Assembly (NCBI RefSeq): GCF_017643475.1 | Contig: NZ_JAEPNI010000005.1 | Coordinates: 1 to 64,000 of the forward strand | From: Maricaulis sp. | GTDB taxonomy: Bacteria > Pseudomonadota > Alphaproteobacteria > Caulobacterales > Maricaulaceae | Direction: 5' to 3' | Length of the DNA stretch: 64,000 bases | Shown: positions 23,676 through 57,614 of the stretch, piece after piece | Layout: the number at the start of each line of letters is the position of its first letter | How positions within the stretch are numbered: position 1 is the stretch's first letter | The notes under the pieces: model-generated | Database searches by the model: none | Seen by the model: the letters and a program-made list of their open reading frames with translations, nothing else | Told to the model about the DNA's origin: nothing | Position numbers and translations under genes: made by a program

Positions 23676-25313
23676 ATGAGACGTGTAGTGATTGTTGGTG
23701 GCGGCTCCGCCGGTTGGATCATGGCGGCCTATCTGAATGGCGCGATCAATGCGCGCGGTCGCGACAAGAAAATCGACATAACGCTTGTCGAATCTCCAGA
23801 TGTGCCACGCATCTCGGTCGGCGAGGCCACCGTTCCTTCAATCCATCACGTGCTGGAAGTGATCGGTATCGACGAAAAGGAATTCATGCGCGAAACGGAT
23901 GCCAGCTTCAAACAGTCGATCAAATACGTGAACTGGCTGGAGAATAACGGATCCGGATATCACCACCCCTTCAACCGCGCGACGCTCGGGCCTATCGACA
24001 ATAGTGGTGCCAATTGGATGGTCTCGCGGCGCGACATCCCGTTCATGGAAACGGTCAGCGCCCAGACCCTGATCGCCGAAGCATGCCGCGGCCCGAAAAC
24101 CGGTGATGGCCGCCCCTTCGTGGCTCCAATCAAATACGCATACCATTTCGATGCCCAGCTTTTCGCCGACTATCTGACCAAGATCGCGACAGCGGCCGGC
24201 GTTACCCATGTCCGAGCCAATGTGGTCAAGGTGAATACCGGCGAGGATGGGCTGATCAAGACACTCGACCTCGACACAGACAACCAGCTCGAAGGCGATC
24301 TGTTTGTCGACTGTACAGGCTTCAAGGCCCTGCTCATCGAAAAGACCATGGGCGTGCCCTTCGAGGACTTTTCCCAATGGCTCTTCTGCAATCAGGCTGT
24401 CGTTGCCCAGTTTGGTTATGAGGACCATTTCCCCGGCGTCGTTCGCCCCTATACCACGGCAACCGCCATGTCGGCGGGCTGGATCTGGGACACGCCCACA
24501 CAGACCCGTCGCGCAATCGGCTATGTACACGCGACCGACTTCATCAGCGCCGATGATGCAGCCCGCGAGCTCCTCGCCTATCAGGGCGTCGACGAGAACA
24601 AGGCCGACACGCGAATCGTCAAGTTCAAGGTGGGCAAACGCCAGAAAGCCTGGGCGGGAAATTGCATCGCCGCGGGTCTCGCGAGCGGCTTCATCGAACC
24701 ACTTGAATCAACCGGCATTTACCTCGCGGAGCTGGCAGCCGTGTTGCTGGCCGAACATTTCCCCTATCGCGATGAGGATCTGGAACCGCTGGCCTTCCGC
24801 TTCAATCGTGTGGTTTCGAACAGATATTATGAAGTGCTCGACTTCATCAACATGCACTATTGCCTGACCCGCCGCACCGACACCGAGTTCTGGAGAGCGG
24901 TGCAGCGTCCGGAGCACATCACTGACCGCCTGAAAGCAAAGCTGGAACACTGGCGGATGAAACCGCCTTCAATGTCCGATTTTCAGGACCAGGCATTCTC
25001 GGGCTTCACCTACGGTCAAACCGTGACGGACGACCCGGAAATCGATCCGCGCCCGCCCGTCGACACCGGAAGTTTGTGGGACCATTCAAGTTACGAAGCC
25101 ATCCTGTTCGGCATGGACTTCCGTGGACCGGAATTCGAGAATCTCGGCACGAACAGACCGCGCTCGCAGATGCTTGAAATCGTAGCAAACGTGCTGCGCG
25201 CAGCGCCGTCCCGGCTGGCGCCGCACCACGCGTGGCTGCATCATAATCTGGGCATGAAGGCCTGGCCGACAGGACCGCGGCCGGCCGGCTGGGTGGATCA
25301 CCCTCACCTGTAG
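23676..25313 (+). CDS. PrnA-type flavin-dependent halogenase family protein with altered WxWxIP motif
   Basis: This 545-residue FAD protein of the tryptophan-halogenase family shows the N-terminal GGGSAG dinucleotide site (8-13), VGEATVP (48-54), the catalytic-lysine segment ASFKQSIKYVNW with Lys79 (same number as PrnA) and GFIEPLEST near 338-346. The flavin-monooxygenase-discriminating WxWxIP motif appears as WIWDTP (269-274), so the Ile is replaced. It would need FADH2 from a separate flavin reductase, and none is nearby. Its 3' end overlaps the convergent sulfotransferase by 10 bp. A receptor gene beyond that suggests action on an imported substrate. Actual halogenation is unproven. Confidence 0.8.
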   Translation: MRRVVIVGGGSAGWIMAAYLNGAINARGRDKKIDITLVESPDVPRISVGEATVPSIHHVLEVIGIDEKEFMRETDASFKQSIKYVNWLENNGSGYHHPFNRATLGPIDNSGANWMVSRRDIPFMETVSAQTLIAEACRGPKTGDGRPFVAPIKYAYHFDAQLFADYLTKIATAAGVTHVRANVVKVNTGEDGLIKTLDLDTDNQLEGDLFVDCTGFKALLIEKTMGVPFEDFSQWLFCNQAVVAQFGYEDHFPGVVRPYTTATAMSAGWIWDTPTQTRRAIGYVHATDFISADDAARELLAYQGVDENKADTRIVKFKVGKRQKAWAGNCIAAGLASGFIEPLESTGIYLAELAAVLLAEHFPYRDEDLEPLAFRFNRVVSNRYYEVLDFINMHYCLTRRTDTEFWRAVQRPEHITDRLKAKLEHWRMKPPSMSDFQDQAFSGFTYGQTVTDDPEIDPRPPVDTGSLWDHSSYEAILFGMDFRGPEFENLGTNRPRSQMLEIVANVLRAAPSRLAPHHAWLHHNLGMKAWPTGPRPAGWVDHPHL

Positions 25314-29100: not shown

Positions 29101-29348
29101 CCGGAAACGTCAGCTACACCAGCGGAACGGGCGTCGTCCACCGAGAGAACGTCCATGGAAACCGGGCTAGTGATGGTCGACTGACGGATACGCGTACCGG
29201 TAACGACAATGCGTTCAGCCGGTTGCTGATCCTCAGCCGCCGCCGGTGTCTGATCGACACCGCCGTCCTGCGCGAGTGCCGGGCTGATGCCGATTGCGAT
29301 CAGCGCCGAGCTCGAAAGCAGGGCTTTGGAAAGAGAAAATGATTTCAT
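26160..29348 (-). CDS. TonB-dependent outer-membrane receptor
   Basis: This 1062-residue receptor has a signal peptide (MKSFSLSKALLSSSALIAIGISPALAQ), a plug domain (ERIVVTGTRIRQSTITSPVSMDVLS; GLRGLGAGRTLDLINGRR; VDVLKDGASSIYGSDAIAGVVN) and a 22-strand barrel. It ends in the terminal strand motif GRRAFLNISKTF with the sorting Phe. The VTGTRIR opening and RTLDLINGRR plug motif are those of the large receptors of Caulobacterales and Xanthomonadales that import oligosaccharides, peptides or plant compounds rather than iron. No TonB-box regulator is next to it. The substrate is unknown. Confidence 0.92.
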   Translation of the reverse strand: MKSFSLSKALLSSSALIAIGISPALAQDGGVDQTPAAAEDQQPAERIVVTGTRIRQSTITSPVSMDVLSVDDARSAGVADVSGLLQSSSAAAGSNQITNAVSVAYVSDGGVGAETVGLRGLGAGRTLDLINGRRAGPSGTRGSINAFDLGSIPLVGIERVDVLKDGASSIYGSDAIAGVVNYITDRSDGSEIDFYTEAPFESGGEVFRASVTHGDSFERGRFRVTADYYMRNELARRDRDYLDCRESYTFTDATMGTRADVIDPRFGTNQCSGTIWGHVWAYNYSGLANPDNVAWNPRNRIFQYDYTNTMAGLVPGIPASLDGTGISAPANWYQVEYTPDHIAGLPAFAGIDVSNRNPDRVTDLYPEMQRNDSVAGELERVTVMGDVEYDLTDNITAYGEFLFNRRSTYVNSHDQYWSYRYGATDYAGNPNLSGDGGENWLMPGLNIEFSPTPVVEWGDEEVTVEYMRLLGGLRGDLGDVGMFSNVSWDMYVQHSDSAGEYTEQFVRNDSIRSTNYQMASCVGQNSGGASATTNTGETVTVAGVSCVDVRWFDPGFLAGNLTDGERDFLLGTDTGTTDFTQTTFDGYITGDVWELPQGPMSAALGIFYQRDEIMDRPSDTTLTGNEFFGSSAGITTGEQETQSIYGEVSIPLFGDMPLVQSLNVIASGRYNEITSSHRDGRSLTVDGSNYRFTLDWAVNDALRFRGSIGTSFRAPALYEQFLAAESRSRRQSDLDPCIGWGVALGNGDISQTVADNCAADGIPDTYSGAPISAQEFRGGGFGFLKPEESDNMTVGFILTPDFEFANVSFAMDYFEIEINDQISTLSGPQIVNGCYSSQNFASEPLCDLFSRGNIIGGEYRIQTVSATFINIDTQTNRGIDITMNANRDTPWGFLDMNLQLSKQLEDNIQLLGASATRHLNGAVGEPEWVALMNMTLSPTEDLSLRWGMNYVGEASTLQSVFASVPLSEQPAGGGAYTITQLGETVNTKTEAEAMFYHHVSGELLLDGGWTIRAGINNVFDEHPPALTNINDSPDLVFAGNSPIVSQYDLLGRRAFLNISKTF

Positions 29349-29474
29349 CGCCTAAAACCTTTAGAATGAATAGTCACGAACTCGGCCACCGAAAGCCATG
29401 TGAATCCTAGGGTCAACTGACATCGCCTTAATGGCAGCTCTCCGGTCACAGTTGCGACAAAAATGTATCAATTT

Positions 29475-29490
29475 ATTACAGAGATGTAAT
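29475..29490. promoter_or_regulatory. inverted repeat upstream of the TonB-dependent receptor
   Basis: ATTACA (29475-29480) and TGTAAT (29485-29490) form a 6-bp inverted repeat with a 4-bp spacer, about 127 bp before the receptor ATG in an otherwise non-coding, AT-rich stretch (29349-29593). It resembles a dimeric repressor site, but no cognate regulator is identified. Confidence 0.25.
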
Positions 29491-29593
29491 GTTATGGCCG
29501 GGCTCGTATATCGACCCCGGTGTTTTGCGTTCAAAGATTACAAATCAGCCATTTCTCGGCAGAAGCCGGGGACATAGTCTCGGAGCAACTCGA

Positions 29594-29968
29594 CTAAGCC
29601 AGGCGGGCGCCATTCGGCGCATCCTGATCGGGTCACGCCAGGACAATGGCGCCATCGGCATCCGGAAAACCCAGCACCAGCACTTCCGATCTGACCGGTC
29701 CAATCTAGCGCGGCGGGAAATTGACCACCGCCATCACCCGGCTCCCCGCCAGCTCCGACGTGGTATAGAGAGTTGTGATCTGCGCAGCGCTGCGTCGCAC
29801 ACCAACACCCGGACCAAAATCGATGCGCAGTTTGAAGGACGGATTGCGGGCCTCCGGGAAGGGCTCGGCCTCGACGATGCTCCCGAGTCGAATGTCGACT
29901 TTCAGAAAGTTATCAAACCCGATTTCCTCCGCTGCCGGCGCATCGGGATCATGCGTGAGATGCATCAC
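29594..29968 (-). pseudogene. CsaA/YgjH-type tRNA-binding-domain protein with two nonsense codons
   Basis: The intact first 87 residues match the small OB-fold tRNA-binding family (CsaA type): FLKVDIRLGSIVEAEPFPEAR, FKLRIDFGPGVGVRRSAAQI and VMAVVNFPPR. The family normally continues for about 25 more residues. Here a TAG (29705-29707) follows VNFPPR, yet the same frame goes on with IGPVRSEVLVLGFP and then ADGAIVLA. A TGA (29633-29635) is followed by PDQDAPNGARLA and the final TAG at 29594-29596. Both interruptions are single-codon changes inside an otherwise perfectly conserved frame (plausibly CAG to TAG and TCA to TGA). An N-terminal 87-residue product may still be made but would lack the last strand and dimer interface. 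Confidence 0.85.
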
Positions 29969-30070
29969 AAACCTCGTTCAATGTGATCCGCTTCACCAGG
30001 CCCTTTTTATGTCGACCCCGGGCGCACCGTCAGCCACCCGTCTGGCGAGCGTGACCGCTGTGGCCCCCAA

Positions 30071-31516
30071 TCACTCGGCTGCGCCTGGCACAGCGTATTG
30101 AGGCGCCGGGCGTGCGAAGACACACAGCTCGGATTCCGCGACCGACAGCATTGCCTCAGGGGTTTCCATAAAGCGTCCGACCATCAACATGGCACATCCA
30201 TCCCCACCCCATTGCTGGGTTGGACCATGCGCTTCCCCCCTCACGCTGACCACGCGGCTGTTCGCGAGGGTCTCGGCGGCGCGCAGCCCCCAGGCTGGAG
30301 GCGTCAGGGGATCGAACTCTCCCGCGACGATCAGGGTCGGCACTTCGGAAACCACCGGCGCAATGAACTCGGCGCCCAGCGGCGGCACATCCCAGGCGGC
30401 GCAAAGCTCTGGCCGGATCGCGGCGCTTTCATATCCGCCCAGTGCCGGCCCGGCTTGCGAACGCCGGCTCCGGTCACTGAAGGGCAAGGCCTCACGGCAC
30501 CAGACCGACAGGCGCATGCCCCAGGCAAGATTGCTGGCCGCTCTCGGTCTGGACATCACACCGGCTATGCCTGGGTCGAGATTTGCAACGGCATCCATCC
30601 TGCCCGGAGCTGCGATGACATCGCGTCCCGAAGACAGGACAATCAGCGCGGCCAGGTCGGCCCCCGTCGCAGGTTCGGCAAGACCTTCCATGCGGAACGG
30701 GGCACGTGTGGACGCTTCGATCCGATTGAAAAAGCGCGCTTCCAGGTCCGGATAGGCCGCCGCGCACGCCGGTTGCGCGGCACAATCTGTTGCGATTGCG
30801 CGCAGCGCCGCCTCGAAATTGCCCGCGCTTTCATCGTCATAAATGGCATTGGGCGGCAGGGGTGAATCAAGCACCATGGCCCGCAGGCTCGCGCTGTGAT
30901 CTCGCGCATATGACAGCGCCAGCCGGGTCCCGTACGACACCGCATAGAAATTCCAGGTCTCGATCTCCAGCACCTGGCGCAGATCCTCGAGATCGGCAAC
31001 GCTGGCCGGGCTGTGGTAGTGCTCCACGCCTATTCCCGCTGCGGTGAGGCGGTCGCGGCACTGGCGCACGGCATCGGCGAGATCGCTGCCGGAACTCACC
31101 GCATCCCGATACTCTGGGCACATCAAGGCCGGCTGTGCACTGGCAGTTCCGCGCTGACCGAAAACGATGAAATCCCGGTCTTCAAGCCAGGGGTAGGCGC
31201 CCGGATAGGCCGCCGCCGGAAGTCCTGATGCGCCAGGTCCACCGGCGAGATAAAGGACCGGTTCGCCTCCCCGTCCAGAGCGATTGTGTACGACGGCAAC
31301 AGGCAGTCTGATCTCCGGGGACTGCGGATCTGTGCGATCCTCCGCGACCACCAGCCAGCCGCGGGTCGAGGCGAAGGACGATGGCACTTGAACCGGAAAA
31401 TCCTCACCCGCCGCCACCGGCTCGAACCGGGGCAATGATCGCTGCGGTTCACTGGCAGGTTGGCACGCCGCCAACAAGATCACGAGACACAAGGACCAGA
31501 CGAACAGACGGCTCAT
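30071..31516 (-). CDS. secreted S33-type alpha/beta-hydrolase lipoprotein
   Basis: This 481-residue protein has a lipoprotein signal (VILLAACQP, lipid on Cys18 or so). The alpha/beta-hydrolase fold has an oxyanion segment (LYLAGGPGASG), a nucleophile elbow with Ser in AVSYGTRLAL, and the acid and His in a TAP-type C-terminal domain (LIVAGEFDPLTPPAWG then VRGEAHG). This is the layout of peptidase family S33 / tripeptidyl-aminopeptidase-like hydrolases, which release N-terminal residues from short peptides. It is anchored in an envelope membrane and is divergent from the KAS III operon that starts 312 bp away. I see no reason in the sequence to add it to that pathway. Confidence 0.82.
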   Translation of the reverse strand: MSRLFVWSLCLVILLAACQPASEPQRSLPRFEPVAAGEDFPVQVPSSFASTRGWLVVAEDRTDPQSPEIRLPVAVVHNRSGRGGEPVLYLAGGPGASGLPAAAYPGAYPWLEDRDFIVFGQRGTASAQPALMCPEYRDAVSSGSDLADAVRQCRDRLTAAGIGVEHYHSPASVADLEDLRQVLEIETWNFYAVSYGTRLALSYARDHSASLRAMVLDSPLPPNAIYDDESAGNFEAALRAIATDCAAQPACAAAYPDLEARFFNRIEASTRAPFRMEGLAEPATGADLAALIVLSSGRDVIAAPGRMDAVANLDPGIAGVMSRPRAASNLAWGMRLSVWCREALPFSDRSRRSQAGPALGGYESAAIRPELCAAWDVPPLGAEFIAPVVSEVPTLIVAGEFDPLTPPAWGLRAAETLANSRVVSVRGEAHGPTQQWGGDGCAMLMVGRFMETPEAMLSVAESELCVFARPAPQYAVPGAAE

Positions 31517-31827
31517 ATTCTCTCCTTGCGACTTGTCGAAAACGGCTGTGGTACAGACGGGAAACGTACCGACAGTCTAGCTGATCGCCCTTGTAACTCA
31601 AGATTTCGAGCGCCGCAGGGTGCCACTCGCTAAGAAAACACGACGAAAGCTGTCACTGACTATCTGTGAGGGCAAATACTAGGACGGATGGTCGAACCGG
31701 GACACAACCATCAACGATGTCCACCAATCAGGCTGATCCCACACGCCGACTGCATGTGAATCGAAATTTCATAGCCAAGCAAAAACCCAGGTTTTAGGAT
31801 TCCCGCATCCCGGCAGAAGGCAATGAC
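31517..31827. other. divergent intergenic region, no gene seen
   Basis: This 311-bp gap separates the secreted hydrolase (minus) and the KAS III operon (plus), so it must hold both promoters. I see no tRNA, strong palindrome or terminator in it. An AGAAGG ribosome site lies about 8 bp before the synthase ATG at 31828. Confidence 0.6.
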
Positions 31828-32844
31828 ATGCAGCACAGGACAGCGGGCCATGGATCCGCGGCGATTACAGGCACCGGAATATTCCTGCCTGGCGCGCCGG
31901 TCAGATCGGACGAGCTGGATCAGCGTCTCGGCATGCCGCGCGGCTGGCTCGAGGAAAAATGCGGCGTTCAGACCCGCCATTATGCGACCGAAGCCGACAG
32001 CCAGGAAAGCATGGGCGTGGCTGCGGCGCATGCGGCCCTTACGGATGCCGGAATTGAACCGGGTGAGCTGGACCTGCTGATCTTTTGCGGCGCTGTCGGC
32101 CGACAGCCCGTGCCCGCGACCGCGCCGCTGATCAAACGGGAACTCGGACTGTCAGCCCATGCTTTCCCGGCCTATGACGTCAACGCGACGTGCCTGGGCA
32201 CGCTGCTCGGCCTTGACCATGCCGCGATGGCGATCGCCACCGGGCGCGCCAGGACCGTGCTTGTTGTGGTGTCGGAAATGCCCTCACAGGCCATACCGTG
32301 GAAACAGGACCCCGCCACAGCCGGACTGTTCGGCGACGGGGCCGCGGCCCTTGTGGTCCAGGCCGGTTCAACAGGCGATATGCGCCTCGGCCCGTTGCTG
32401 ATGGAAACCCATGCCGACGGTTACGAATACTGCCAGGTCGGCTCCGGAGGTACGCGCTACAACCCGGTCACAGAGGCAGCGGCCTTTGAGGACAATGCCG
32501 TCTTCTCCATGGACGGCAAGGGCGTGTTCAGGCTCTCATCGAAAACCTTCCCGCGTTTCCTCGAACAGGTGCTGGACAAGACCGGCTGGTCGCTGGGCGA
32601 GGTCGATCTTGTGGTGCCCCACCAGGCCAGCCCGCACGCCATCTCCCTGATGGTCAAACGCTGTGGCATTAGACCCGAACAGATCTTTGATGTCGCCAGG
32701 ACCATGGGCAACCAGGTTGCGGCCTCCCTGCCCATCGCCCTGCACCAGGCGCGTCTGGCAGGACGTATCCAGTCGGGCATGAAAATCCTGATGGCCGGCA
32801 CATCCGCGGGTATCTCGCTGGGCGCCATGGCAGTGACGACGTGA
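31828..32844 (+). CDS. KAS III (FabH/OleA-like) condensing enzyme
   Basis: This is a 338-residue thiolase-fold synthase with a complete Cys-His-Asn triad: Cys122 in DVNATCLGTLLG, His265 in VVPHQASPHA and Asn295 in RTMGNQVAASLP. It should therefore perform Claisen condensation of an acyl thioester. Differences from housekeeping FabH (for example a bulky GYEYCQVGSGGTRYNP segment at about 198-212, and no plsX/fabD neighbours) suggest a secondary-metabolism or OleA-like role with unusual acyl donors. It is the first gene of a six-gene operon, and its stop overlaps the next start (GTGA). I infer that it makes the beta-keto acyl precursor for the pathway. Confidence 0.88.
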   Translation: MQHRTAGHGSAAITGTGIFLPGAPVRSDELDQRLGMPRGWLEEKCGVQTRHYATEADSQESMGVAAAHAALTDAGIEPGELDLLIFCGAVGRQPVPATAPLIKRELGLSAHAFPAYDVNATCLGTLLGLDHAAMAIATGRARTVLVVVSEMPSQAIPWKQDPATAGLFGDGAAALVVQAGSTGDMRLGPLLMETHADGYEYCQVGSGGTRYNPVTEAAAFEDNAVFSMDGKGVFRLSSKTFPRFLEQVLDKTGWSLGEVDLVVPHQASPHAISLMVKRCGIRPEQIFDVARTMGNQVAASLPIALHQARLAGRIQSGMKILMAGTSAGISLGAMAVTT

Positions 32845-33821
32845 CGATGCAGACGATCTGGGTCACCGGCGCGACCGGGTTTCTGGGCGGCCGGGTGGTC
32901 GAGGACCTGCTGGAGAGCGGCCATACGGTCATCGCCAGCGGTCGCCAGGCCCATGTCCTCGAGCGGTTTCAGCAGAAGGGCGCCCGAACACTCGCCTTCG
33001 ACCTTGCCGACCCGACCCCGCCTGACCTGCCGGCGGTGGACGCGGTTGTGCACTGCGCCGCGCTGTCCAGCCCCTGGGGCCGTTATGCGGACTTTCACCT
33101 TGCCAATGTCCTTGGCACTCGATCCGCGCTGAAGCTGGCCCGGCAGGCGAGCGCAAAACGCTTCGTCCACATCTCCACCCCCAGCGTCTATTTTCGTTTT
33201 CGCGACCAGTTCAACGTCCGCGAAACACAGCCCCTGCCATCACCGGTCAATGCCTATGCCGCCACCAAGGCCCGGGCCGAACAAGAGGTGCTGGCGCAGG
33301 AGGCGCTCGACCCGGTCATCCTGCGCCCGCGCGGGCTTTACGGACGCGGCGACACCGCCCTGCTCCCGCGCCTCCTGGCGGCAGCCCGGGAACGTCCACT
33401 GCCCCTGATGAACAAGGGCAAGACGGTTACCGATCTGACCCATGTCGACGATGTTGTCTCAGCAGTTCGTGCAGCGCTCAATCTCGCGCCTGCCCCGACG
33501 CAGCGCCTGTTCAACATCTCGGGTGGTGAAGCTCTGACACTGAAATCCGTCACCGAAGACGCAGCCCGCCGCGCCGGTGTCCAGGTGCGCTGGCGCCCCG
33601 TCCCCAGCTGGGTCGCCCTGGCCTATGCACGCGGCCTTGAGACGATTGCGCGCCTTCGCCCCGGCTACCCGGAACCGCGGATCACCGCCTATGGAGTCGG
33701 CCTGTTCGCCTACAGCCAGACGCTCGACATTTCTGCGGCGCGGGAGGTGATGGGATGGACACCCAAAATCAGCATTCAAGAGGGCCTGGATCGCACTTTT
33801 TGCGAGGACACCGCCCAATGA
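32841..33821 (+). CDS. extended SDR, NAD(P)-dependent epimerase / 3-beta-HSD (OleD-like) family
   Basis: This 326-residue Rossmann enzyme has TGATGFLGG (9-17), the active-site Ser/Thr region HISTPSVYF and the catalytic YAATK (Tyr139, Lys143). The C-terminal half fits 3-beta-hydroxysteroid dehydrogenase/isomerase-like or OleD-like ketoacyl reductases. Next to a condensing enzyme, reduction of a beta-keto product to a beta-hydroxy product is the natural role. The start is taken as the GTG at 32841, which overlaps the previous stop by 4 bp; the ATG at 32847 is equally possible. Its stop overlaps the next gene (ATGA). Confidence 0.85.
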   Translation: MTMQTIWVTGATGFLGGRVVEDLLESGHTVIASGRQAHVLERFQQKGARTLAFDLADPTPPDLPAVDAVVHCAALSSPWGRYADFHLANVLGTRSALKLARQASAKRFVHISTPSVYFRFRDQFNVRETQPLPSPVNAYAATKARAEQEVLAQEALDPVILRPRGLYGRGDTALLPRLLAAARERPLPLMNKGKTVTDLTHVDDVVSAVRAALNLAPAPTQRLFNISGGEALTLKSVTEDAARRAGVQVRWRPVPSWVALAYARGLETIARLRPGYPEPRITAYGVGLFAYSQTLDISAAREVMGWTPKISIQEGLDRTFCEDTAQ

Positions 33822-34588
33822 TGCCCAGCTTCCCAGACAGCGCCACGGTGCGCGCACCGGAGCGGCTGGTGCTTCACGGCGGTCGCTGGACAAGCCTCGA
33901 GCTGACCGTGCGTTACGGGCGTTTCGAACATCCCGAGGCGGGTACTTGCCTGATCGATACGGGCTACACCTCGCGTGTGACCGAGGGCCGGCGTTCCTTC
34001 GCCCTGCGTTTTTACAATGCGTTGCTCAAGCCCGAACTGTCCGCCGATGCCCTGCCTGCAGCCTGGCCAAAGGTCGACACCATTCTGCTCAGCCACCTGC
34101 ATGCCGACCATGTGTCCGGACTGCGCGATTATCCAGACGCGAAAATCTATGCCCATGGCGGCAGCGTTGACCATTTCACCCAGGCCAGCTGGCTGCATCG
34201 CGCGACCCACGGGGTCTTTGCCGAACTGCTCCCGGATGATCTCGCAGACCGGATAATCCGGTTCGAGGACCTGCCGATCGTCTCGGCCCCGCTGGGTCTT
34301 GGCCTCGCCTACGACATCTTCGGTGATCAAAGCGTGCTGGCCGTGCCACTGCCCGGGCACATGCTCGGCCATATGGGCTTTTGCTGGCCGGTGCCGGACA
34401 CGCCCATTCTCTATGCCGCCGATGCGCAATGGCTCCACCAGGCGGCGGTCGAGGGCACTCTGCCACCGCCGCCAGCCCGCTGGATCCTGCATGATCCAAA
34501 GGCGGCGCTTGCCACGTCTGCGCGCATCGCCGACTTCGCACGCCAGGGCGGCCGGGTCATTTACTGCCACGATCCGGAGACCGTGTAA
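33818..34588 (+). CDS. metallo-beta-lactamase-fold hydrolase
   Basis: This is a protein of about 256 residues with the metal motif HLHADH (His93, His95, Asp97, His98), a later metal His in PLPGHMLGHMG, an Asp in LYAADAQW and a final His in IYCHDPE, so a two-metal site is complete. The N-terminal part (RYGRFEHPEAGTCLIDTGY) resembles lactonase/AHL-lactonase-type members that open cyclic esters or thioesters. The ATG at 33818 overlaps the preceding stop and was chosen over the longer frame from 33755. In the operon it may hydrolyse a thioester or lactone intermediate; the substrate is unknown. Confidence 0.83.
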   Translation: MMPSFPDSATVRAPERLVLHGGRWTSLELTVRYGRFEHPEAGTCLIDTGYTSRVTEGRRSFALRFYNALLKPELSADALPAAWPKVDTILLSHLHADHVSGLRDYPDAKIYAHGGSVDHFTQASWLHRATHGVFAELLPDDLADRIIRFEDLPIVSAPLGLGLAYDIFGDQSVLAVPLPGHMLGHMGFCWPVPDTPILYAADAQWLHQAAVEGTLPPPPARWILHDPKAALATSARIADFARQGGRVIYCHDPETV

Positions 34589-35871
34589 TGGCACGGACGT
34601 CGGCTAAAATCCTGCTGGAGACCGCCCGCACCTGGCTGCAAACCCGCTGGCGTGCATCACGCCTTGCAACCCGCGAAGCGATCGAGCAGCATCGGGTCCG
34701 ACAACTCCGTCGCTTCCTCAAAGAGGTCGCGCCACGGGCCGAGGCCTTCCGCGATCTGGCGGGAAAGCTGCTGGACGACTTCCCGCGCATGGACAAGGCC
34801 AGGCTGATGGCCGGGTTTCATCGTTATAACCGCTACGGGATCAGTGCCGAGGATGCCTGGGCGGCCATGGAGCGCGGCGACACGCTGCACGGCTGCCATG
34901 TCGGCGCCAGCACAGGCACGAGCGGCAATCGCGGCCTCTACCTGGTCAATCCGATGGAGCGGGCACGCTGGCTGGGCGTGATGCTGGCCAAGACCGGTAT
35001 CGATATCCTTCGCACCCGACAGCGTGTCGCCATCCTTCTGCCCACCAACAGCCAGCTCTATGAAACTGCCAATGAAAGCGGGCGGCTCCAGCTGGTCTTC
35101 TTTGATCTCAATGAGGGGGTTGCCGCTCACGCGGAGGCGCTGTCCAGCTTCGACCCGACGGTGCTGGTCGCCACACCTCACGTGCTCACCTTGCTGGCCG
35201 ACATGGATATCGCGCTGAACCCCGAAGTGATCTTTTCCGGCGCAGAGGTTCTCGACCCCACGGATCGCAAGAAGATCGAAACCCGTTTCCAGCGCACCGT
35301 GCGCGAAATCTACATGGCGACCGAGGGCCTGTTCGCAGTCGCCTGTTCCCATGGCCGCCTACACCTCACCGAGGATGTGATGGCGTTCGAATGGGACAGC
35401 CAGCCGGACCTGCCCGGCCTGCTTGCCCCGGTGATCACGGACTACTCGCGCACCTCCCAGATGATGGTGCGCTATCAGATGAATGACCTCCTGCGCCTGT
35501 CCGACACACCCTGCCCCTGCGGATCAGCCCTGCAGGCGGTCGACGAGATCGTCGGGCGGCGTGATGACATTTTCGACCTGCCGGGCACAGCAGCCCGCAT
35601 CCCGGTCACCCCGGATATAATCCGCAATGCGATCATTCGCACCAGTCCGCGCATCGAGGATTTCCGGGTCACCCAGACCGGCGAGGCCGAGATCGCCCTC
35701 GCGCTACCCGAGGCCTGTTCGGATTTGACAGGTGATGCGGCACAGGCGCTGAACACATTATTCGCCCGGCTGGGGGCAAACGCCGACATCACCGCACAGA
35801 CCGCCCCGCTGGTCAGCCCGCAGACCCGCAAGCTTCGTCGGGTTGTTCGCGAATGGCAGGGACCGGCATGA
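34588..35871 (+). CDS. PaaK / F390-synthetase-like adenylate-forming enzyme
   Basis: This 427-residue protein has the ATP phosphate-binding loop GASTGTSGNRG (about 106-116), the IFSGAEVLD segment, MATEG (A5-like) and DYSRTSQMM..YQMNDLL. The C-terminal CPCG followed by VGRRDDIFDLP is the pattern of PaaK-type CoA ligases and coenzyme F390 synthetases. It should activate a carboxylate as acyl-AMP, possibly to thioester, amide or beta-lactone (as OleC does in a different adenylation family). It overlaps the previous stop by 1 bp (TAATG) and the following start by 4 bp. There is no separate carrier protein in the operon. Confidence 0.82.
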   Translation: MARTSAKILLETARTWLQTRWRASRLATREAIEQHRVRQLRRFLKEVAPRAEAFRDLAGKLLDDFPRMDKARLMAGFHRYNRYGISAEDAWAAMERGDTLHGCHVGASTGTSGNRGLYLVNPMERARWLGVMLAKTGIDILRTRQRVAILLPTNSQLYETANESGRLQLVFFDLNEGVAAHAEALSSFDPTVLVATPHVLTLLADMDIALNPEVIFSGAEVLDPTDRKKIETRFQRTVREIYMATEGLFAVACSHGRLHLTEDVMAFEWDSQPDLPGLLAPVITDYSRTSQMMVRYQMNDLLRLSDTPCPCGSALQAVDEIVGRRDDIFDLPGTAARIPVTPDIIRNAIIRTSPRIEDFRVTQTGEAEIALALPEACSDLTGDAAQALNTLFARLGANADITAQTAPLVSPQTRKLRRVVREWQGPA

Positions 35872-36845
35872 ACCGCGCCGCCTGGTATCCTGTCGCTGCG
35901 ACACGCGACCTGCGCACCGGTCCCGCAAAGGCTCAGCTGCTGGGAACGCCGCTTGTCATCTGGCGAGGCGAGGACGGTTACGGCGCCCTCGCCGACATCT
36001 GCCCGCACCGGGGCGCGCCGCTGTCGGAAGGGTGTGTGAACAAGGGCGCGATCGCCTGCCCCTATCATGGATGGCGCTTTGATACTGAAGGACAGTGCGT
36101 GGCGATGCCGGCCCTGGCGGAAACACCCCCCCGCATCCGTGCCCAGGCCTTTGCGACCGCGGAACATGACGGGCTGGTCTTCGTCCGGATGGAAGGCTCG
36201 GGACACGGTTTCACACCGCCCCCTCCGCAACAGGACATCGCGTCCGCCACCCGCGCGGATGACGTCACCATTCGCGCCTCGCTGGCCGACATGGCGGAGA
36301 ATATCCTGGATACGACCCATACCTCTGTCGTGCACGCCGGCTATCTGCGCCAGGCCAACCGGCGGCAACTCGTCCAGCCCGGCGTACGCTGCGGGGCGGA
36401 CTGGATCGAGGTGGTCTATCCGGAAAGCGCCACGCCCAGCGGCCTTGTCTCCCGCCTGTTCGGAACGGAGTGTTACGAGATCACCGACCGGTTTCGCGCG
36501 CCCGGCATTGCCGAGGTCGAATACCGGCGCAACGGCCGGATCGAATTCGCCTCGCGCTTTTACCTGTCCCCTGCCAGCGAAAACGAAACCCGGATCTTTT
36601 CCAGACTCTCCATTCGCGGCACATCGCTGTTGTCCCAGCTGAAAGTCTCCATAGTCCGGGCCATGCTGCGCCGGGTGGTCTCCGAGGACGAGGACATTCT
36701 GGGGCTGGTGACCGACAATGCTGAACGCTTTGGGCGTCGCCCCGGTCTCATCGCTCCACAGGACTTCCTGCGTGCGGGCATCGACGCCATCCTGCGCGGT
36801 GAGGCGCCAGCGCGGCCCGACCACATCCCGCCGATCTACGTGTGA
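35868..36845 (+). CDS. Rieske-type non-haem iron oxygenase
   Basis: This 325-residue protein has a Rieske [2Fe-2S] cluster motif (Cys45-x-His47 ... Cys64-x2-His67, in CPHRGAP and CPYHGW). A catalytic domain follows with the mononuclear iron signature ENILDTTHTSVVHAG (His150, His155). This fits single-component-oxygenase subunits of the vanillate-demethylase / KshA-like branch, which hydroxylate or dealkylate. Electrons must come from a separate reductase not encoded here. ATGA overlap with the upstream gene fixes the start at 35868 (MNRAAWYP). I infer late-stage oxidation of the product made by the operon. Confidence 0.88.
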   Translation: MNRAAWYPVAATRDLRTGPAKAQLLGTPLVIWRGEDGYGALADICPHRGAPLSEGCVNKGAIACPYHGWRFDTEGQCVAMPALAETPPRIRAQAFATAEHDGLVFVRMEGSGHGFTPPPPQQDIASATRADDVTIRASLADMAENILDTTHTSVVHAGYLRQANRRQLVQPGVRCGADWIEVVYPESATPSGLVSRLFGTECYEITDRFRAPGIAEVEYRRNGRIEFASRFYLSPASENETRIFSRLSIRGTSLLSQLKVSIVRAMLRRVVSEDEDILGLVTDNAERFGRRPGLIAPQDFLRAGIDAILRGEAPARPDHIPPIYV

Positions 36846-36852
36846 GACCGCG

Positions 36853-37932
36853 ATGTCATTTGCCACGAGCCTGAACTTCACCTCGTCGAATGAAGATGGC
36901 CGCACCGAGCTGGCCGCGCTCGACCTGTCACCGGAGGACCGCGTGCTCTGCCTCACGGCCAGTGGCACCCGGCCGCTTGATCTCCTGTTGGGAGATCCCG
37001 GCGACATCCTCGCCATCGACATCAACCCGGCCCAGAACCACCTGCTGAGGCTCAAAATCGCGGCGTTCAAGACCCTGGCCGATGACGAATTATATGCCTA
37101 TCTGGGGCTTCAGCAGACGCCAGACCGGCTGGCCCTGCATGCCCGGGTCGAAACCGTATTGTCAGAGGACGCGCGCCGGTTCTGGAGCACGAGAACGGGT
37201 CTTGTCCGCAAGGGCGTCTGGAATACCGGGCGCTGGGAACGGGTGCTGCGCTTCCTGGCGCGCATACTACGCCTGGTCAGGGGCCGACGGCTCGATCAGC
37301 TTTTTGCGGCCCGGACGGTCGAGGAGCAACATCAGATCTGGCTGGAGCATTTCGAGGATGCCTTCTGGAAATCCAGTATTCACCTGCTGTCCAGCCGTTT
37401 CTTCTGGACCCATGTCATCGGCGAACCAGGCGGACAATTCCTTCCCGACCGCACAGAAACCACCCGTCGCCTGACCGCAGCCTTCCACAATGCCAGCAAA
37501 CAATTCCTCTTCGGCCAGTCCGATTTCGCGACCCTGATCTTTCTGGGCCAGCACACATCCAGCAGCGCTCTGCCCCTGCACCTGCAGCGCGCCAATCTCG
37601 CGCGTGTGCGCGACCGCCTGGATCGGATTGAGATCGCCGATACCGACCTTGCCGCGCTGGAGCCTGATCAGCACGGAAGCTTTACGGCCTTTTCGCTGTC
37701 CGATTTCGGGTCCTACTGTACGCCCCAAGCCTATGCGGCGTGCTGGGACGGCGTGCTGAAAACCGCCCGACCCGGCGCGCGCTTCTGCGAACGCGTCTTC
37801 ATGAATCCGCTCGCCCTGCCGGCCTCGTTGGAACCCCGGATATCACTGGACAAAACCCTGTCAGACCAGTTCTCCAACAGCGACGGCGCAATCATCTATG
37901 ACATCCGCGCCGGGAGGCTGGAAATCAGCTAG
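36853..37932 (+). CDS. BtaA-like (DUF3419) aminocarboxypropyl transferase
   Basis: This 359-residue protein has a SAM-binding N-terminal fold: LDLSPEDRVLCLTASG (24-38), ILAIDINPAQNHLLRLK (52-68). The family (BtaA, first enzyme of betaine-lipid synthesis) moves the 3-amino-3-carboxypropyl group of SAM onto a hydroxyl such as diacylglycerol. The start is the ATG at 36853, 7 bp after the oxygenase stop; the longer frame from 36718 overlaps that gene and is not needed. No BtaB-type N-methyltransferase follows, so the product would stay a homoserine ether rather than a trimethylated betaine. It is the last gene of the operon. Confidence 0.8.
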   Translation: MSFATSLNFTSSNEDGRTELAALDLSPEDRVLCLTASGTRPLDLLLGDPGDILAIDINPAQNHLLRLKIAAFKTLADDELYAYLGLQQTPDRLALHARVETVLSEDARRFWSTRTGLVRKGVWNTGRWERVLRFLARILRLVRGRRLDQLFAARTVEEQHQIWLEHFEDAFWKSSIHLLSSRFFWTHVIGEPGGQFLPDRTETTRRLTAAFHNASKQFLFGQSDFATLIFLGQHTSSSALPLHLQRANLARVRDRLDRIEIADTDLAALEPDQHGSFTAFSLSDFGSYCTPQAYAACWDGVLKTARPGARFCERVFMNPLALPASLEPRISLDKTLSDQFSNSDGAIIYDIRAGRLEIS

Positions 37933-37974
37933 CCGCGAGACCGTTACAGGTCAGCTCACAGGAGCAAACACACC

Positions 37975-40023
37975 CTATCCGCTGCCACCCCGGATCCGTA
38001 CGCGGGCGCGTGTTGTGCGGCCCTGGTCGTCCACCGCCTCGATCTCGTAGAAGCCGGGACCGCCCGGCACCCAGACAGCATCCCCGGCGGCGTTGCGAGC
38101 GACTTCTTCGCCGTCTGCATACCAGCTCACCGACTGGCTGGACTGGGCGGCCAGCACAAAGCCGCGTCCTGCGCGGTCGGCCCAGACCTCGGCTCCATCC
38201 GGTGGAAAGAGGATGTGTGGCGCGACATCGGCGGTGAAGCGTTCCAGTGTGGGCGGTGTCTCGAGGGCCTCTGGCTCGCGCGTGCGGACAAATGCCGGTG
38301 ACGGGTCGAACTGTTCAACCAGGTCGAACATGCGGAACAGGACGGGCAAGGCGGCCTCGCGACCGGTCAGCCCGTTGCGTGCTGCCCCGTCCGCCCGCCC
38401 ACTCCAGACAATGATCGTGTATCGTCCCGATATCCCGGCAGCCCAGGCGTCACGGAAACCGTAGGACGTGCCGGTCTTGAAGGCGATGTCCGGCGCCGAA
38501 CGTGTCAGGCTGGCCGGCATGCGCCCGCCGGGATGCGGAGCCCGGCGCAGGATGTCGACAATCTCGCCCGCGGACTCTGCGCTCAACACGGAAAACCCGC
38601 CCTCGGACACAGGCGCCGCCTCGCTCCAGCGCAAGGGCTGGGCAACGCCCTCATCGGCCAGAGCGGAATAGAGCACCGCCAGTTCCCGCACACTCAGCCC
38701 AGCCCCGCCAAGCGCCACCGCCAGTCCGTCATCCTGCCCAGCTGTCCGCCGCCGTTCGGGCGCAGCACCGGCAAACCCTAAAACCGCACTGAAACGCCGC
38801 GCGCCAACACCGTCCAGCGTCGCGACAGCGGGCACGTTCAGGGAATGCTGGAGCGCTTCGGCAATCGTCACATCACCGCGGAAAGTCCGGTCAAAATTGT
38901 CCGGTCGATAACCGGCAAAACGTGTGGGCAGGTCAGCGATCCGTGTGTGCGCAGCCGCCAACCCGTCATCAAAGGCCATGCCGTAGATAAAGGGCTTCAG
39001 CGTCGATCCCGGCGAGCGCGCGCGATCTGTCAGATCAATCCAGCCACCTGGACGCGATCGGGACGCAGACCCCAGCGCCGCACGAACCGCGCGGGTCTCG
39101 TTCTCGACCACAAGCACCGCCAGCTGGCTGGTGTCATCACCCGTCGGCAATTCGTCGATGATCGCTGTTTCCAGGGCGGACTGGAGGGCGAAATCAAGTG
39201 TGGAGACAAGATCAACACCGCCCTGCACTCCACCCCGCTCGCGGACCAGGCTCTCGCTGGCATGCCAGGCCAGGGCCGGAAAGGCCCGGCGCTGTGGCGC
39301 GGGATCGAGCGCGGCATCTCGCGCGGCTTCTCTTGAAGCCAGTCCGACCGCGGCCAGCCGGTCCAGGACCCGCCCCCGGGCAATAACGGCCTGCTCCGGT
39401 CGACGGTCCGGGCGTCGGGCTTCCGGTGATTGTGGCAGGGCGATCAGCATGGCGATCTGCTCGATCGTCAGCACGTCCGGCTCCCGCCCGAAATACGCCC
39501 AGCTGGCCGCACGCACACCTTCAAGATTACCGCCATAGGGGGCCAGGGTCAGATAGGCCTCCAGGATCTCGTCCTTGGACAGGCGCATCTCGATCTGAAC
39601 GGCGCGGATCATCTGCAGGAATTTGGCGCCCAGAGTGCGTTCCCGCGGCTCAAGCAGGCGCGCCAGCTGCATGCTCAGCGTCGAGGCCCCGGAGACAACC
39701 CGCCCTGCCGCCAGGCTGTCGCGGGACGCACGCAGGACGGCCAGCAGGTCGACCCCGGCATGGCTGAAGAAACGCTCATCCTCATAGGCCAGCAGCGCTT
39801 CGACAAAATCCGGATCAAGCGTGTCGAGGTCTGCGGGCAGACGCCAGCGCCCCTCCTCGACCGGAAAGGCGCGCAGGACGATGCCATTGCGGTCCCGCAC
39901 CACATGCGACACCTCCGCGACCTGTGACAGCGGCGGCGGGAAGATCCGGTCGAGCACAAACAGGCCCAGCACAAGGCCGAGCACTCCCAGCAGCAAGCGA
40001 TATCGGCGCCTCAGTGCGGGCAT
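37975..40023 (-). CDS. pbpC: penicillin-binding protein 1C
   Basis: This 682-residue bifunctional cell-wall enzyme is anchored by an N-terminal helix (LLLGVLGLVLGLFVLD). The GT51 glycosyltransferase domain has YEDERFF and GASTLSMQLARLL. The transpeptidase domain has SPGSTLKPFIYG (catalytic Ser in SxxK), an SLN motif (HSLNVPAV) and FKTGTSYGFRDAW (KTG). A C-terminal beta domain typical of PBP1C (BiPBP_C, residues about 600-680) follows. It lies 9 bp downstream of the alpha-2-macroglobulin gene, the classic envelope-defence pair. PBP1C is thought to repair peptidoglycan when the partner traps proteases. Confidence 0.93.
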   Translation of the reverse strand: MPALRRRYRLLLGVLGLVLGLFVLDRIFPPPLSQVAEVSHVVRDRNGIVLRAFPVEEGRWRLPADLDTLDPDFVEALLAYEDERFFSHAGVDLLAVLRASRDSLAAGRVVSGASTLSMQLARLLEPRERTLGAKFLQMIRAVQIEMRLSKDEILEAYLTLAPYGGNLEGVRAASWAYFGREPDVLTIEQIAMLIALPQSPEARRPDRRPEQAVIARGRVLDRLAAVGLASREAARDAALDPAPQRRAFPALAWHASESLVRERGGVQGGVDLVSTLDFALQSALETAIIDELPTGDDTSQLAVLVVENETRAVRAALGSASRSRPGGWIDLTDRARSPGSTLKPFIYGMAFDDGLAAAHTRIADLPTRFAGYRPDNFDRTFRGDVTIAEALQHSLNVPAVATLDGVGARRFSAVLGFAGAAPERRRTAGQDDGLAVALGGAGLSVRELAVLYSALADEGVAQPLRWSEAAPVSEGGFSVLSAESAGEIVDILRRAPHPGGRMPASLTRSAPDIAFKTGTSYGFRDAWAAGISGRYTIIVWSGRADGAARNGLTGREAALPVLFRMFDLVEQFDPSPAFVRTREPEALETPPTLERFTADVAPHILFPPDGAEVWADRAGRGFVLAAQSSQSVSWYADGEEVARNAAGDAVWVPGGPGFYEIEAVDDQGRTTRARVRIRGGSG

Positions 40024-40032
40024 GGTCCCGTC

Positions 40033-43000
40033 CTAGCCCTCGCGCGGTGCAATACTGACCGATCGGGATTCGGACCGGCCGAACACATCGGGACGATACA
40101 TGTCCTCCATCACCGCGCCCGGGAAGGTGTACGTACCCGGGGTAACGGCTCGAACGATATAGGCCAGGCGGATCGGGCGGCGCTCCCGCAGATCGATGGC
40201 GGCCACAAACCGGTCATCCCGCGCCTCGGCAATCCGCGGTGAATTCAGCTGGCGAAGCCAGGAATAGGCACCGTTTGCGCCCGCATCGCCAGGATCAACA
40301 ACCGCCTCGATCTCGAATCCGGCCGGCAGGAGATCAACCACGATCGCCGGGATGGTCCGCATTTCGCTGGGAGCCACGATGATGTCGATGATCATGCGGT
40401 CACCCTGGGTGATGGCGTCGAGCGCAACCGGCTGGCCATCCATCGTGCTGAGACGTTTCTGGACAACGACGCCTTGCATCGCGACGGGTGGCGCGCTGAC
40501 CGGATCACCATGCGCGATCTGGGTCACCCAGACCGGTCCGGAACCAGCATTGTCGAAGCCGAACTGGGCTTGCAGGTCACCCGCCATCAACTCGAATTCC
40601 GACTGCCCCGGATTGGCCGCCAGCTCGCCCGCCGAAATATTGATGGTGATGGCCTCACCGCCCATTGCCCGCGCGGCGAGCAGCAGGAAGGCCTTCTCCT
40701 GGGTCGTCAGACGGCTGGGCTCGGGAAGCTCGGCAGCCACACGTTCCGCCAGACGTTCGACCCGCTCTGTTTCGCCAGCCTCAGCGGCCAACGCCAGCAC
40801 ACCGGCCAGGTCCCGGCGGGAGGACTGGTACCAGTCACCCGTATTGGCATATCCCAGTGCAGATTCTGCGGCATCGAACGCGCTCTGCGAGCGCGCCCGG
40901 TCACCGATCAGGTACAGCGCCACGGCCAGCTGGGCCCGTGCCAGCGGGCTGGCGATCTGTTGCAGGCGTTCATCATGCATGTAGCGAAGACGCGACCGGT
41001 CCGCCCGGCCGTCTCGCGCCAGCACATAAAGCGCATAGGCCGCACTGCGGTCGGTCAGGCGCTGGTCCGTATCCGTCTGGCCACGCCACATGCTGATCGT
41101 GCGGTCATAGCCATTGACCCGCCAGAGCTCCTGATTGCCGATATGGACAAGCGATTGATAGGCCCGCTCCAGCGCAGCATCCGGAACCGTGTATCCCGCC
41201 TCCGCAGCACGCGCGAGGAAGTCGACTGCATAAACACCCAGCCAGGGCGTTGAACCGCGGTCACCGACACGCCATAGCCCGAACGTCCCGTCCGCAGCCT
41301 GCCTTGACAACAGGGTGCCGATGGATTCCTGCACGCGTGCCCGCGCCTCGTTCACCCCGTCCGCGCCAGACAGCTGCGCCAGCTGGTCGGCATAGAGCAG
41401 CGGCATGGCCCGGCTGGTGATCTGTTCCGAGCAGCCATAGGGATAGCGGCTGAGCGAGCGCAGCAGCGCTGCCTCGTCCAGCGGTGTCGGAGAGAAGCTC
41501 ACACTGAGCACGCCCGTACCTGGCATGAAGCTGCCGAGCGCATCCGCGCTCACCGTCCAGCTGTCTCCCGGACTCAACCGGCCACGGTCAATGCTGGAAT
41601 AGGGCAACCAGGCCGAACGAACCTCAAGCGGATAGGATCGCTCGACGGCAAACCCGTCCGGGCCTGTGACGCTGAGCGAAAGCTCGCCAATACCGGTATC
41701 GCTCGCAGCGATCGGATGGCGCGGATCGACGCGCTCGCCGGAGGCCAGCTCGTAACGCGTCTCGATATCGGCATTCACCGGCAGCTCGGCGCCGATACGG
41801 GCCGCGTACTGACCGGCAGCACCTTCGACATTGTCCAGCGTCAGCGTCGTCATCGACGAATCGCCCGGCGCCAGGAAGCGCGGCAGGATGAGTTCCGCCG
41901 GCACCTGATCCCGTACCGTGAGCGGCTGGGCTGCAGACCCGACGCCATTGCCAGACCAGGCCACAGCCATCAGTCGCAACTCGCCATTGAAGTCGGGAAT
42001 GTCCAGCTCGACCGTCGCGCGTCCGTTGCGATCCAGCGGAACCGGTCCGGAATAAAGCGCCACCGTGCGCGTCGGCACCACGCTCAGCCCGGCTCCACCG
42101 ATCTGGTCACCCCCGGAGCGAATGGCAGCAGCAGCCCCCTGGTTGGGGTCGAGCAGACGGCCATAATCATCCAGAAGATCCACATCCAGCGTGGTTTTGC
42201 CGAAATACCATTCCGCCGGATCAGGGGACTGGAAACGGGTCAGCGCCAGAATGCCTTCATCAACCGCCGCCACGGTGATCCAGGCGCCATCGCGCACCGG
42301 CCCGTCAGCCTCGACCTCGAGCGCTAGCGTCTGGCGCGGCCGGACCAGATCCGGAGCATTCAGTGCAATCTCGAATGTGCGATCGGAGACATCGACCGGC
42401 AGGTGCATCACCCCGACAGCACGGCGAGGTCTCGGCTCGGCGACCGGATCGCGTGGGGTCAGGACGGACACCATGACGTAGGCGCCAGCCCCCCAGTCCT
42501 CATCGACACGCAGCGAAATCTCGGCGCCATCTTCCGGCACGGTAATCGCCCGGGTTTCCAGGACCCGGTCCGTCGCGATGACAATCTCGGCTTCACCGGC
42601 ATAGGGCGGCAGGATATTGATCACGGCTTCGCCGCCAACAGCCAGCGCTTCATCCGGTCCGGCCAGGCGCACCCGGTCCGGCGCCTGGTTGCCCGAGGAT
42701 GCCCGCGCACCCCAGCCAACCCAGAAACCCGTCGATGAGGTCACGCCCGTCGTGTCATGCGTCAGCACAAGCTGGTAATCGCCCCAATCCATTGGCGGCA
42801 ATTGCAACTCGGTCGGGGCGTCATTCGCCAGACCGGCCACACCTTCCTCAACCAGGACAACATTGCGCGACCGGCGCCATTGCCAGCGGCCACCAGAGGT
42901 GCGGTACCAGTCATATTCCCAGTCGATACGCAGCAATTGCCAGCTTGCGCTGCCGGCCTCAAGCTGGCCCTGCGCATCCAGGGCGACAAGGTTGAAACCG

Positions 43001-54153: not shown

Positions 54154-54318
54154 CCGGGTCTCCATCAGGCCGTCATTAAGAGCGTCAGTGTCCTGGGGAC
54201 AGACAAATCCGCTCGCACTCAGTGTAACAAGAATGGGAATTCACGACGCGGCATTGCTGATCTTGGGTGAAAGCCAGGCCGTATCCGCTGATTGCCGGAA
54301 CAATAGCCGGCACAATCC

Positions 54319-54348: not shown

Positions 54349-54386
54349 CAATTTTCAGGGCTTGAAACCGTTCGGTTTCAACATGC

Positions 54387-57551: not shown

Positions 57552-57614
57552 AATGGTCTCCCCTAGACGCACATCATTTATGTTTCCCCGAGCCATATTT
57601 CGGCATCGTCTGGA

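Follow-up and report, generated by a model that had tools for sequence, protein, structure and literature searches.

A six-gene operon-like locus of Maricaulis sp. with a conserved four-gene core and variable tailoring genes

The locus described here belongs to Maricaulis sp. (assembly GCF_017643475.1, contig NZ_JAEPNI010000005.1) and lies in a stretch of 64,000 nucleotides, positions 1 to 64,000 of the contig, which is called the window. It comprises six complete open reading frames of the plus strand, from 31828 to 37932, as follows:

31828..32844, plus strand: KAS, FabH-like beta-ketoacyl-ACP (acyl carrier protein) synthase III (ACP_syn_III), core gene 1, with C122-H265-N295
32841..33821, plus strand: SDR, extended short-chain dehydrogenase, OleD-like, core gene 2, GTG start
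33818..34588, plus strand: MBL, metallo-beta-lactamase-fold hydrolase (Lactamase_B) of the acyl-homoserine lactone (AHL) lactonase structural group, core gene 3
34588..35871, plus strand: ADE, PaaK-like adenylate-forming enzyme, TIGR02304 'F390 synthetase-related', core gene 4
35868..36845, plus strand: RIE, Rieske non-haem iron oxygenase of the VanA_C type, tailoring gene, alternative start at 35853
36853..37932, plus strand: BTA, DUF3419 protein, distant BtaA relative, predicted aminocarboxypropyl (head-group) transferase

All six genes were confirmed as intact and as arranged like an operon, with junctions of -4, -4, -1, -4 and +7 bp in order. The tight packing and the 7-bp gap before the last gene had been seen in a first-pass annotation, which counted one overlap too many: four of the five junctions overlap. 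The RIE start at 35868 gives an ATGA overlap and the alternative start at 35853 an overlap of 19 bp. The closest relative, L034, does not keep the KAS start codon at 31828, which makes this start uncertain by about five codons. Recurrence of the gene set in many genomes shows that the arrangement is not due to chance. The family names given earlier to the six proteins were confirmed (ACP_syn_III, OleD-like SDR, Lactamase_B, TIGR02304, Rieske with VanA_C, and DUF3419), and the expected catalytic motifs, whose roles are general knowledge, were found in all of them.

The composition of related loci was compared in a set of 65, the window and 64 others obtained by scanning named genomes with an alignment of ten ADE proteins, on contigs containing one of two conserved peptides only, with genes counted anywhere in the available stretch. 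ADE was identified in 65 loci, SDR and MBL in 58 each and KAS in 56, and all four were present in 56. Less frequent were RIE (37), GNAT-like (29), VTT (14) and cytochrome P450 (6) genes. Three putative head modules were identified, never two together: DUF3419 in 15 loci, an ATP-grasp-like gene in 24 and a glycosyltransferase (GT) in 15. The Rieske gene accompanied DUF3419 in 12 of 15 loci, ATP-grasp in 23 of 24 and GT in 0 of 15; the GNAT-like gene was found in 4 of 15, 24 of 24 and 0 of 15, respectively. ADE stood alone in five loci, four with a contig end near it (L058, L088, L095 and L096) and one being a distant archaeal relative (L097). Since the gene profiles were built from these same loci with self-chosen thresholds of 80-100 bits, the counts describe the set and are no independent test; the simple gene caller also drops some overlapping genes, which affects the locus maps. 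A core of KAS, SDR, MBL and ADE is joined to alternative modules, with DUF3419 and the Rieske gene in the variable part. The conserved functional unit of the first-pass annotation stands, and its fixed six-enzyme pathway gives way to a four-gene core with exchangeable tailoring genes.

A search with ADE in 150 genomes of the order gave strong matches in 10 (E <= 7.8e-101, source genome included) and weaker ones in 7. Fourteen stretches were taken from it: core genes stood beside ADE in ten (L020-L029) and in none of three weak matches (L031-L033), while in L030, not mappable by the simple gene caller, MBL and SDR were found by tblastn. The GT-type clusters (type B) carry a glycosyltransferase with Glyco_transf_28 and EryCIII-like_C domains, presumably as in RhlB, which gives them a likeness to the rhamnolipid system RhlAB; they were set apart by description only, the scaffold coming from the four-gene core and not from RhlA. 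In six DUF3419-type clusters of the Hyphomonas group (L036-L038, L040, L045 and L070) KAS is immediately preceded by a P450 gene, which in L038 appears in several pieces. Named strains with such clusters include Roseisalinus antarcticus CECT 7023 for the DUF3419 type (L089) and Maricaulis maris DSM 4734 for the GT type (L044). The surrounding gene pattern of L039 (Candidatus Sulfopaludibacter) is the same as that of the Hyphomonadaceae loci, and this locus is probably mis-binned.

The association of DUF3419 with the core was also followed from the DUF3419 side, with a profile of 12 cluster proteins against 398 genomes of the order. Matches were identified in 20 genomes: 7 full-length and strong (E <= 1.8e-166, source included), 1 fragment and 12 weaker, the last at 13 places with 163-185 bits. 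All 7 full-length cluster-type genes had RIE and ADE within 1.5 kb, and the fragment, at a contig end (G666), adjoined RIE. In contrast, a cluster gene stood beside 0 of the 13 other-clade DUF3419 genes (flanks up to 1.5 kb, L148 cut by its contig) and beside 0 of the 30 best BtaA-type places of a search of the class (a few flanks shorter than 1.5 kb), where PF11899 exceeded its cut-off in 44 of 385 genomes. The first-pass annotation had named homologues that almost never co-occur as grounds for refutation; these neighbourhood counts go the other way.

A tree of 60 DUF3419 sequences separated 17 cluster proteins from 30 BtaA-type proteins and from a third group of 13. The cluster proteins comprise 14 BTA1 and 3 BTA2 proteins (support 99 each, starred) that form one clade together (96, starred), and the 30 BtaA-type rows lie on the other side of a starred branch of 99; the tree was made by a quick method with support only from the Shimodaira-Hasegawa-like approximate likelihood ratio test (SH-aLRT), and carries a long-branch warning for L145, L105 and L089. 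BTA2 alone was identified in L084. Both types occur in one cluster in L056 (3748-4809 and 11257-12336) and L075 (4518-5600 and 7965-9059), which suggests two successive transfers or two acceptors. The third group (L135-L146 and L148) has a WEDA motif and, by reading of four loci inspected, phytol/dolichol-kinase-like and phosphoenolpyruvate-utiliser-like neighbours.

The distribution of the modules was traced with 74 ADE proteins in a tree made by the quick method (L154-L156 long), from which L097 and two short rows were left out and in which 10 unlabelled rows were not counted. Five changes are required for the DUF3419 label (15 rows with BTA1 or BTA2), starred branches forcing at least four; the figures for ATP-grasp are six and at least four, and GT and the E. 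coli type require one change each. Counts of this kind cannot separate gain from loss. The DUF3419 module has therefore been gained, lost or exchanged repeatedly. As the cluster DUF3419 proteins group in a single clade, this is most simply read as the arrival and loss of a dedicated gene in alternation with ATP-grasp. Both enzymes may install an amino-acid-like head; if so, this alternation of an ATP-grasp with a SAM (S-adenosylmethionine)-dependent enzyme would clearly illustrate how one pathway position can be filled by non-homologous enzymes.

The first two core enzymes were compared with those of olefin-type (Ole) clusters. The KAS shares the Cys-His-Asn triad with FabH and remains below the cut-offs of two FabH-type models, TIGR00747 (199.3 bits, cut-off 292.1) and PRK09352 (222, cut-off 249), and of PRK07204 (286.5, cut-off 402); it scored 126 bits with PRK09258, which we take to be the model nearest OleA. 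Among solved structures the best chain was FabH-type, with 4v2p ('ketosynthase', presumably MxnB) second and CorB (4yuc) fourth, both assumed here to be enzymes joining two chains. The position of OleA Glu117-Pro is Val/Ile-Pro in 11 of 11 aligned cluster KAS proteins, Phe-Pro in the second FabH-like protein of the source genome and Glu-Pro in 4 of 4 KAS III proteins adjoining true OleD genes, that is, genes over the OleD cut-off, which were found in 4 of 299 genomes. The SDR (motifs TGATGFLGG and YxxxK) had as its best NCBIfam models the two OleD models, NF042422 and NF042423, at 170.4 and 140.7 bits with a cut-off of 580, and OleD proteins from four genomes reached 234-243 bits with a profile of the cluster SDR proteins.

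These two enzymes bear on an explanation in which the KAS would join two acyl chains head to head, the SDR reduce the keto group and the ADE close a beta-lactone in the manner of OleC, with the MBL in the place of OleB opening it to a branched, mycolate-like 2-alkyl-3-hydroxy acid before oxidation and addition of a head group. The four core genes map one to one onto the four Ole steps, the OleD likeness of the SDR, the lactonase fold of the MBL and the ranks of 4v2p and CorB agree with it, and Ole clusters decorated with GT and P450 genes are known (PMC7064751, available sections). We nevertheless consider it unlikely, given the Val/Ile-Pro of every cluster KAS against the Glu-Pro of those beside OleD, the scores with FabH-type models and PRK07204 against that with PRK09258, and an ADE that is a PaaK-like TIGR02304 enzyme. 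Membership in OleABCD was rejected on the missing glutamate and the cut-offs. OleABCD and oleADC, as presented in those sections of PMC7064751, are alike in joining a condensing enzyme, a 3-oxoacid SDR and an acid-activating enzyme in one cluster; besides the KAS, SDR and ADE, they differ in that no OleB alpha/beta-hydrolase is among the six operon genes, which have the MBL-fold gene instead, and in the DUF3419, ATP-grasp or GT modules of the present clusters. Of the comparison with Ole pathways drawn in the first-pass annotation, only the analogy of step logic survives.

The MBL contains HxHxDH, H181, D202 and H251, with metal ligands invariant in 12 sequences, and its AlphaFold2 model (pLDDT, the predicted local distance difference test, 88.9) had the AHL lactonase AhlX as best structural match (template modelling score, TM, 0.77). 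It shares the fold and the dinuclear metal ligands with AHL lactonases of the AttM/AiiA type, but Trp205, three residues after the metal Asp and invariant in 12 of 12, replaces the Tyr of AhlX and 4-pyridoxolactonase, an active-site residue of these lactonases, and the NCBIfam AttM model was matched at 41.8 bits with a cut-off of 390. Homoserine lactone is an unlikely substrate, because clusters that lack DUF3419 have the MBL as well. The ADE passes TIGR02304 with 271.2 bits over residues 14-424 of 427 (cut-off 251.9), a family that is a name and not a described system, and contains STGTSGNRG, YMATEG and K415. TIGR02304 was the best of its 6 NCBIfam matches, among which there was no OleC model, the library not having been checked for one. 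Its nearest solved structures are PaaK, AjiA1 and other PaaK-like ligases.

Such ligases would also suit a secreted signal or antibiotic, made from a short acyl or aromatic acid that the PaaK-like enzyme activates, KAS III extends once and the remaining enzymes decorate, with the MBL giving self-protection or product release; a patchy, partly plasmid-borne distribution fits a dispensable metabolite. This origin appears rather improbable, since the desaturases, the weakly OlsE-like hydroxylase, and the PAP2 and VTT-domain (DedA-like) genes of related clusters fit lipids better, and no dedicated exporter was noticed among the neighbours inspected, although no systematic exporter search was made.

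The tailoring enzymes were assigned in the same way. RIE exceeds the cut-offs of Rieske (89.3 bits, cut-off 20.3) and VanA_C (33.0, cut-off 23.5), has the motifs CPH..CPYH and DxxHxxxxH, and counts SxtT, SxtDIOX, DdmC and NdmA among its relatives. BTA exceeds the Pfam cut-off of PF11899 (193 bits against 28.2) and contains G38 and DINPAQN. Cluster DUF3419 proteins and BtaA share E14, D15, G38, D56, N58 and other residues, among them those of the SAM site; at the putative acceptor site, the former have SLSDFGSYC where BtaA has LLDxxDWM, and Asn13 at the conserved Trp. The AlphaFold2 model of the DUF3419 protein is confident (pLDDT 92.8); its best Foldseek row was an uncharacterised Leptospira protein and the rest were mostly SAM-dependent methyltransferases, all weak. 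A search of the PDB with the DUF3419 profile gave a single match at E 0.37, and profiles from the alignments of ATP-grasp and GNAT proteins found nothing convincing there.

BtaA transfers the aminocarboxypropyl group in betaine-lipid synthesis (PMC10491745, available part), and transfer of the same group by the cluster DUF3419 protein is somewhat more probable than not. The operon could also be read as two things, a DUF3419 enzyme making the homoserine ether of ordinary diacylglycerol and, in the other five genes, a separate neighbouring pathway. The Pfam score and the shared SAM-site residues are in line with this, yet it is very improbable: the adjacency to RIE and ADE seen in 7 of 7 cluster-type genes was found in none of the 13 other and 30 BtaA-type genes, the cluster proteins are a separate clade with repeated label changes on the ADE tree, and no clear orthologue of the methyltransferase that neighbours BtaA was present in the 7 DUF3419-type genomes (best 29.4 bits, the query being called BtaB solely because it adjoins a BtaA-type gene). 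Membership in the BtaA/BtaB betaine-lipid system was accordingly rejected by tree, gene context and absence of the partner; the domain and SAM site are common to both, whereas the cluster proteins fall outside the BtaA clade, differ in the acceptor-site residues and are embedded in a KAS/ADE operon.

We give about even odds to a reading in which the locus represents one variant of a modular biosynthetic system with a core and tailoring genes. That the genes work together and that the head modules vary is nearly certain, and the co-operation of the genes is well supported. In this modular system the FabH-like KAS would make a beta-ketoacyl chain, which the OleD-like SDR would reduce to beta-hydroxy; the lactonase-fold MBL may release or open an acyl intermediate (thioester or lactone), and the TIGR02304 enzyme could adenylate the free carboxylate and pass the acyl group to CoA, ACP, a hydroxyl or an amine. 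The core itself is conserved, while its chemistry is predicted. Tailoring in Maricaulis would consist of oxidation followed by addition of the SAM-derived aminocarboxypropyl head by the DUF3419 protein. In related clusters the same scaffold may receive a sugar through the glycosyltransferase, or an amino acid or N-acylated amine head through the ATP-grasp and GNAT-like enzymes. The homoserine ether, the Rieske step and the 'lipid or signal molecule' of the first-pass annotation are putative in the same sense, and the complete scheme, as written, is rather unlikely to hold in full.

The fatty-acyl origin of the product, proposed from the start, is still the most likely one and is probable: acyl chains are suggested by the FabH-like KAS, by the desaturase, weakly OlsE-like hydroxylase and PAP2 genes of the E. 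coli version, and by the activity of BtaA. A PaaK-like 'F390 synthetase' ligase of a ladderane-related cluster of Desulfotalea was guessed to attach acyl chains to glycerol (PMC2649909, sections available). As heads vary on one scaffold, the most probable product is a lipid family whose polar heads are exchangeable. A bolder version, somewhat less probable than not, is an undescribed class of membrane lipids with one four-enzyme core, interchangeable homoserine, amino-acid and sugar heads, and horizontal spread, in part by plasmids, through Bacillota and alpha-, beta- and gammaproteobacteria, including E. coli, with about one eighth of its complete genomes. Should the modular model be right, variable heads on a single scaffold would amount to a natural experiment in how membrane lipids or signals diversify. 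The core offers a possible first functional context for TIGR02304, for a DUF3419 subfamily apart from BtaA and for a seven-gene block of E. coli.

Several observations weigh against the modular lipid scheme. The operon contains no gene for an ACP, a Rieske reductase or a ferredoxin. Given the SLSDFGSYC and Asn13 differences, the cluster DUF3419 protein could use another acceptor than BtaA and could even transfer another group; the Foldseek matches of its model include none at E <= 0.001 (best E 0.002), and the TM by query length of 0.34 for the Leptospira protein is the highest among the best 50 rows. No activity report was found in the open-access literature for the cluster DUF3419 clade or for TIGR02304. 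None of the three head modules was identified in 11 of the 65 loci, SDR and MBL are lacking in 7 and KAS in 9 (several contigs being cut), and KAS-SDR-MBL are consecutive in 41 maps and KAS-SDR-MBL-ADE in only 27; in many ATP-grasp clusters the ADE lies apart from the other genes in divergent orientation. Weak Pfam matches underlie the names ATP-grasp and GNAT. In G1041 (L190, outside the class) the core is present without lipid-enzyme genes after it.

The system is conserved and modular, and apparently undescribed. No description of the gene combination was found in the open-access literature, the subscription literature not being covered. Open-access papers touching DUF3419 concerned algae, betaine lipids and anther smut only, and none was found for the 'F390 synthetase-related protein' or for the E. 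coli gene set. An expression study of Acinetobacter on phenol names an F390 synthetase and, in the sections available, describes no cluster (PMC5501837); a paper found for the combination of ATP-grasp, GNAT and Rieske concerns, in its accessible part, a different, tRNA-synthetase-based system (PMC2922099). The ladderane-related clusters of Kuenenia and Desulfotalea are alike in having a PaaK-like ligase beside fatty-acid synthesis genes, and differ, by description and with sequences not compared, in being large type II fatty-acid synthesis clusters with no KAS-SDR-MBL-ADE core or DUF3419 in the available part of PMC2649909.

The distribution of TIGR02304 is wide but patchy, as its cut-off was exceeded in 7 of 398 evenly drawn Pseudomonadota genomes and in 1 of 14 control genomes. 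An ADE relative was identified in 26 plasmid records at E <= 1e-20, five of which were inspected. The plasmid-borne clusters of Paenibacillus urinalis and Paraburkholderia contain ATP-grasp and GNAT, that of Shinella GNAT, Rieske and ATP-grasp, and that of Ketogulonicigenium the core followed by a VOC-family gene. The fifth, E. coli KE48, has the core with PAP2, sterol-desaturase-family and acyl-CoA desaturase genes; its record is called a plasmid, yet nar, purU and galU surround the block. This seven-gene block (KAS, SDR, MBL, TIGR02304, PAP2, sterol-desaturase family and desaturase; L153 6203-13084, L158 3001-9882) was identified in 672 of 5,426 complete E. coli genomes (12.4%), at least 80% of it in 671, with 671 places on chromosomes and 2 on plasmids. 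In E. coli JJ2434 it lies between narI and the tRNA-Tyr gene (tRNA-Tyr/purU side). The E. coli ADE member scored 755 bits with TIGR02304, and the hydroxylase of this version is weakly OlsE-like (66.6 of 475 bits). Among seven further neighbourhoods, which include G1041, the arrangement of E. coli recurs in G975 and G1104, here with two desaturase-like genes, and G927, G824, G819 and G471 are ATP-grasp types, the last two below the TIGR02304 cut-off.

The operon is flanked by the following features:

31517..31827, no strand: upstream intergenic region, likely promoter place, 97.1% identical to L034
30071..31516, minus strand: divergent upstream flank, 481-aa lipoprotein-like alpha/beta-hydrolase (reading of the translation), outside the operon
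37975..40023, minus strand: convergent downstream flank, penicillin-binding protein 1C-like (reading of the translation), outside the operon

Both flanking genes have the opposite orientation and therefore bound the transcription unit. Within the genus, the DUF3419 type was identified only in the source genome and G093. Of 19 genomes of the genus, G093 alone carries a close orthologue (98%) of the upstream 481-aa gene. For the downstream gene, orthologues at about 70% identity were identified in 13 other genomes, G093 not among them. Identity to L034 is 97-98% upstream and 89.0-93.0% in the operon genes, and similarity stops exactly at the end of the DUF3419 gene. The identity drop and the flank pattern fit an exchange at the locus and are no proof of one.

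A promoter scan found no consensus sigma-70 promoter in 31517-31827 and was at chance level over 31500-38050 (1 site, 34155-34128 on the minus strand, 1.0 expected), as was the terminator scan (5 against 3.6 expected); Rfam had no match within 29000-41000. Control by phosphate was rejected, the PHO-box pattern having 12 matches in the window against 8.2 expected and none in 24403-46482.

By reading of translations, other genes of the window are pstA-, pstC- and pstS-like phosphate uptake genes at 7556-12208, about 20 kb upstream of the operon, and four consecutive flavin-dependent tryptophan halogenase-like genes at 57728-63752, preceded by TonB-receptor- and GH3-like genes at 51556-57629. A fifth halogenase-like gene lies at 23676-25313, beside a TonB receptor at 26160-29348.

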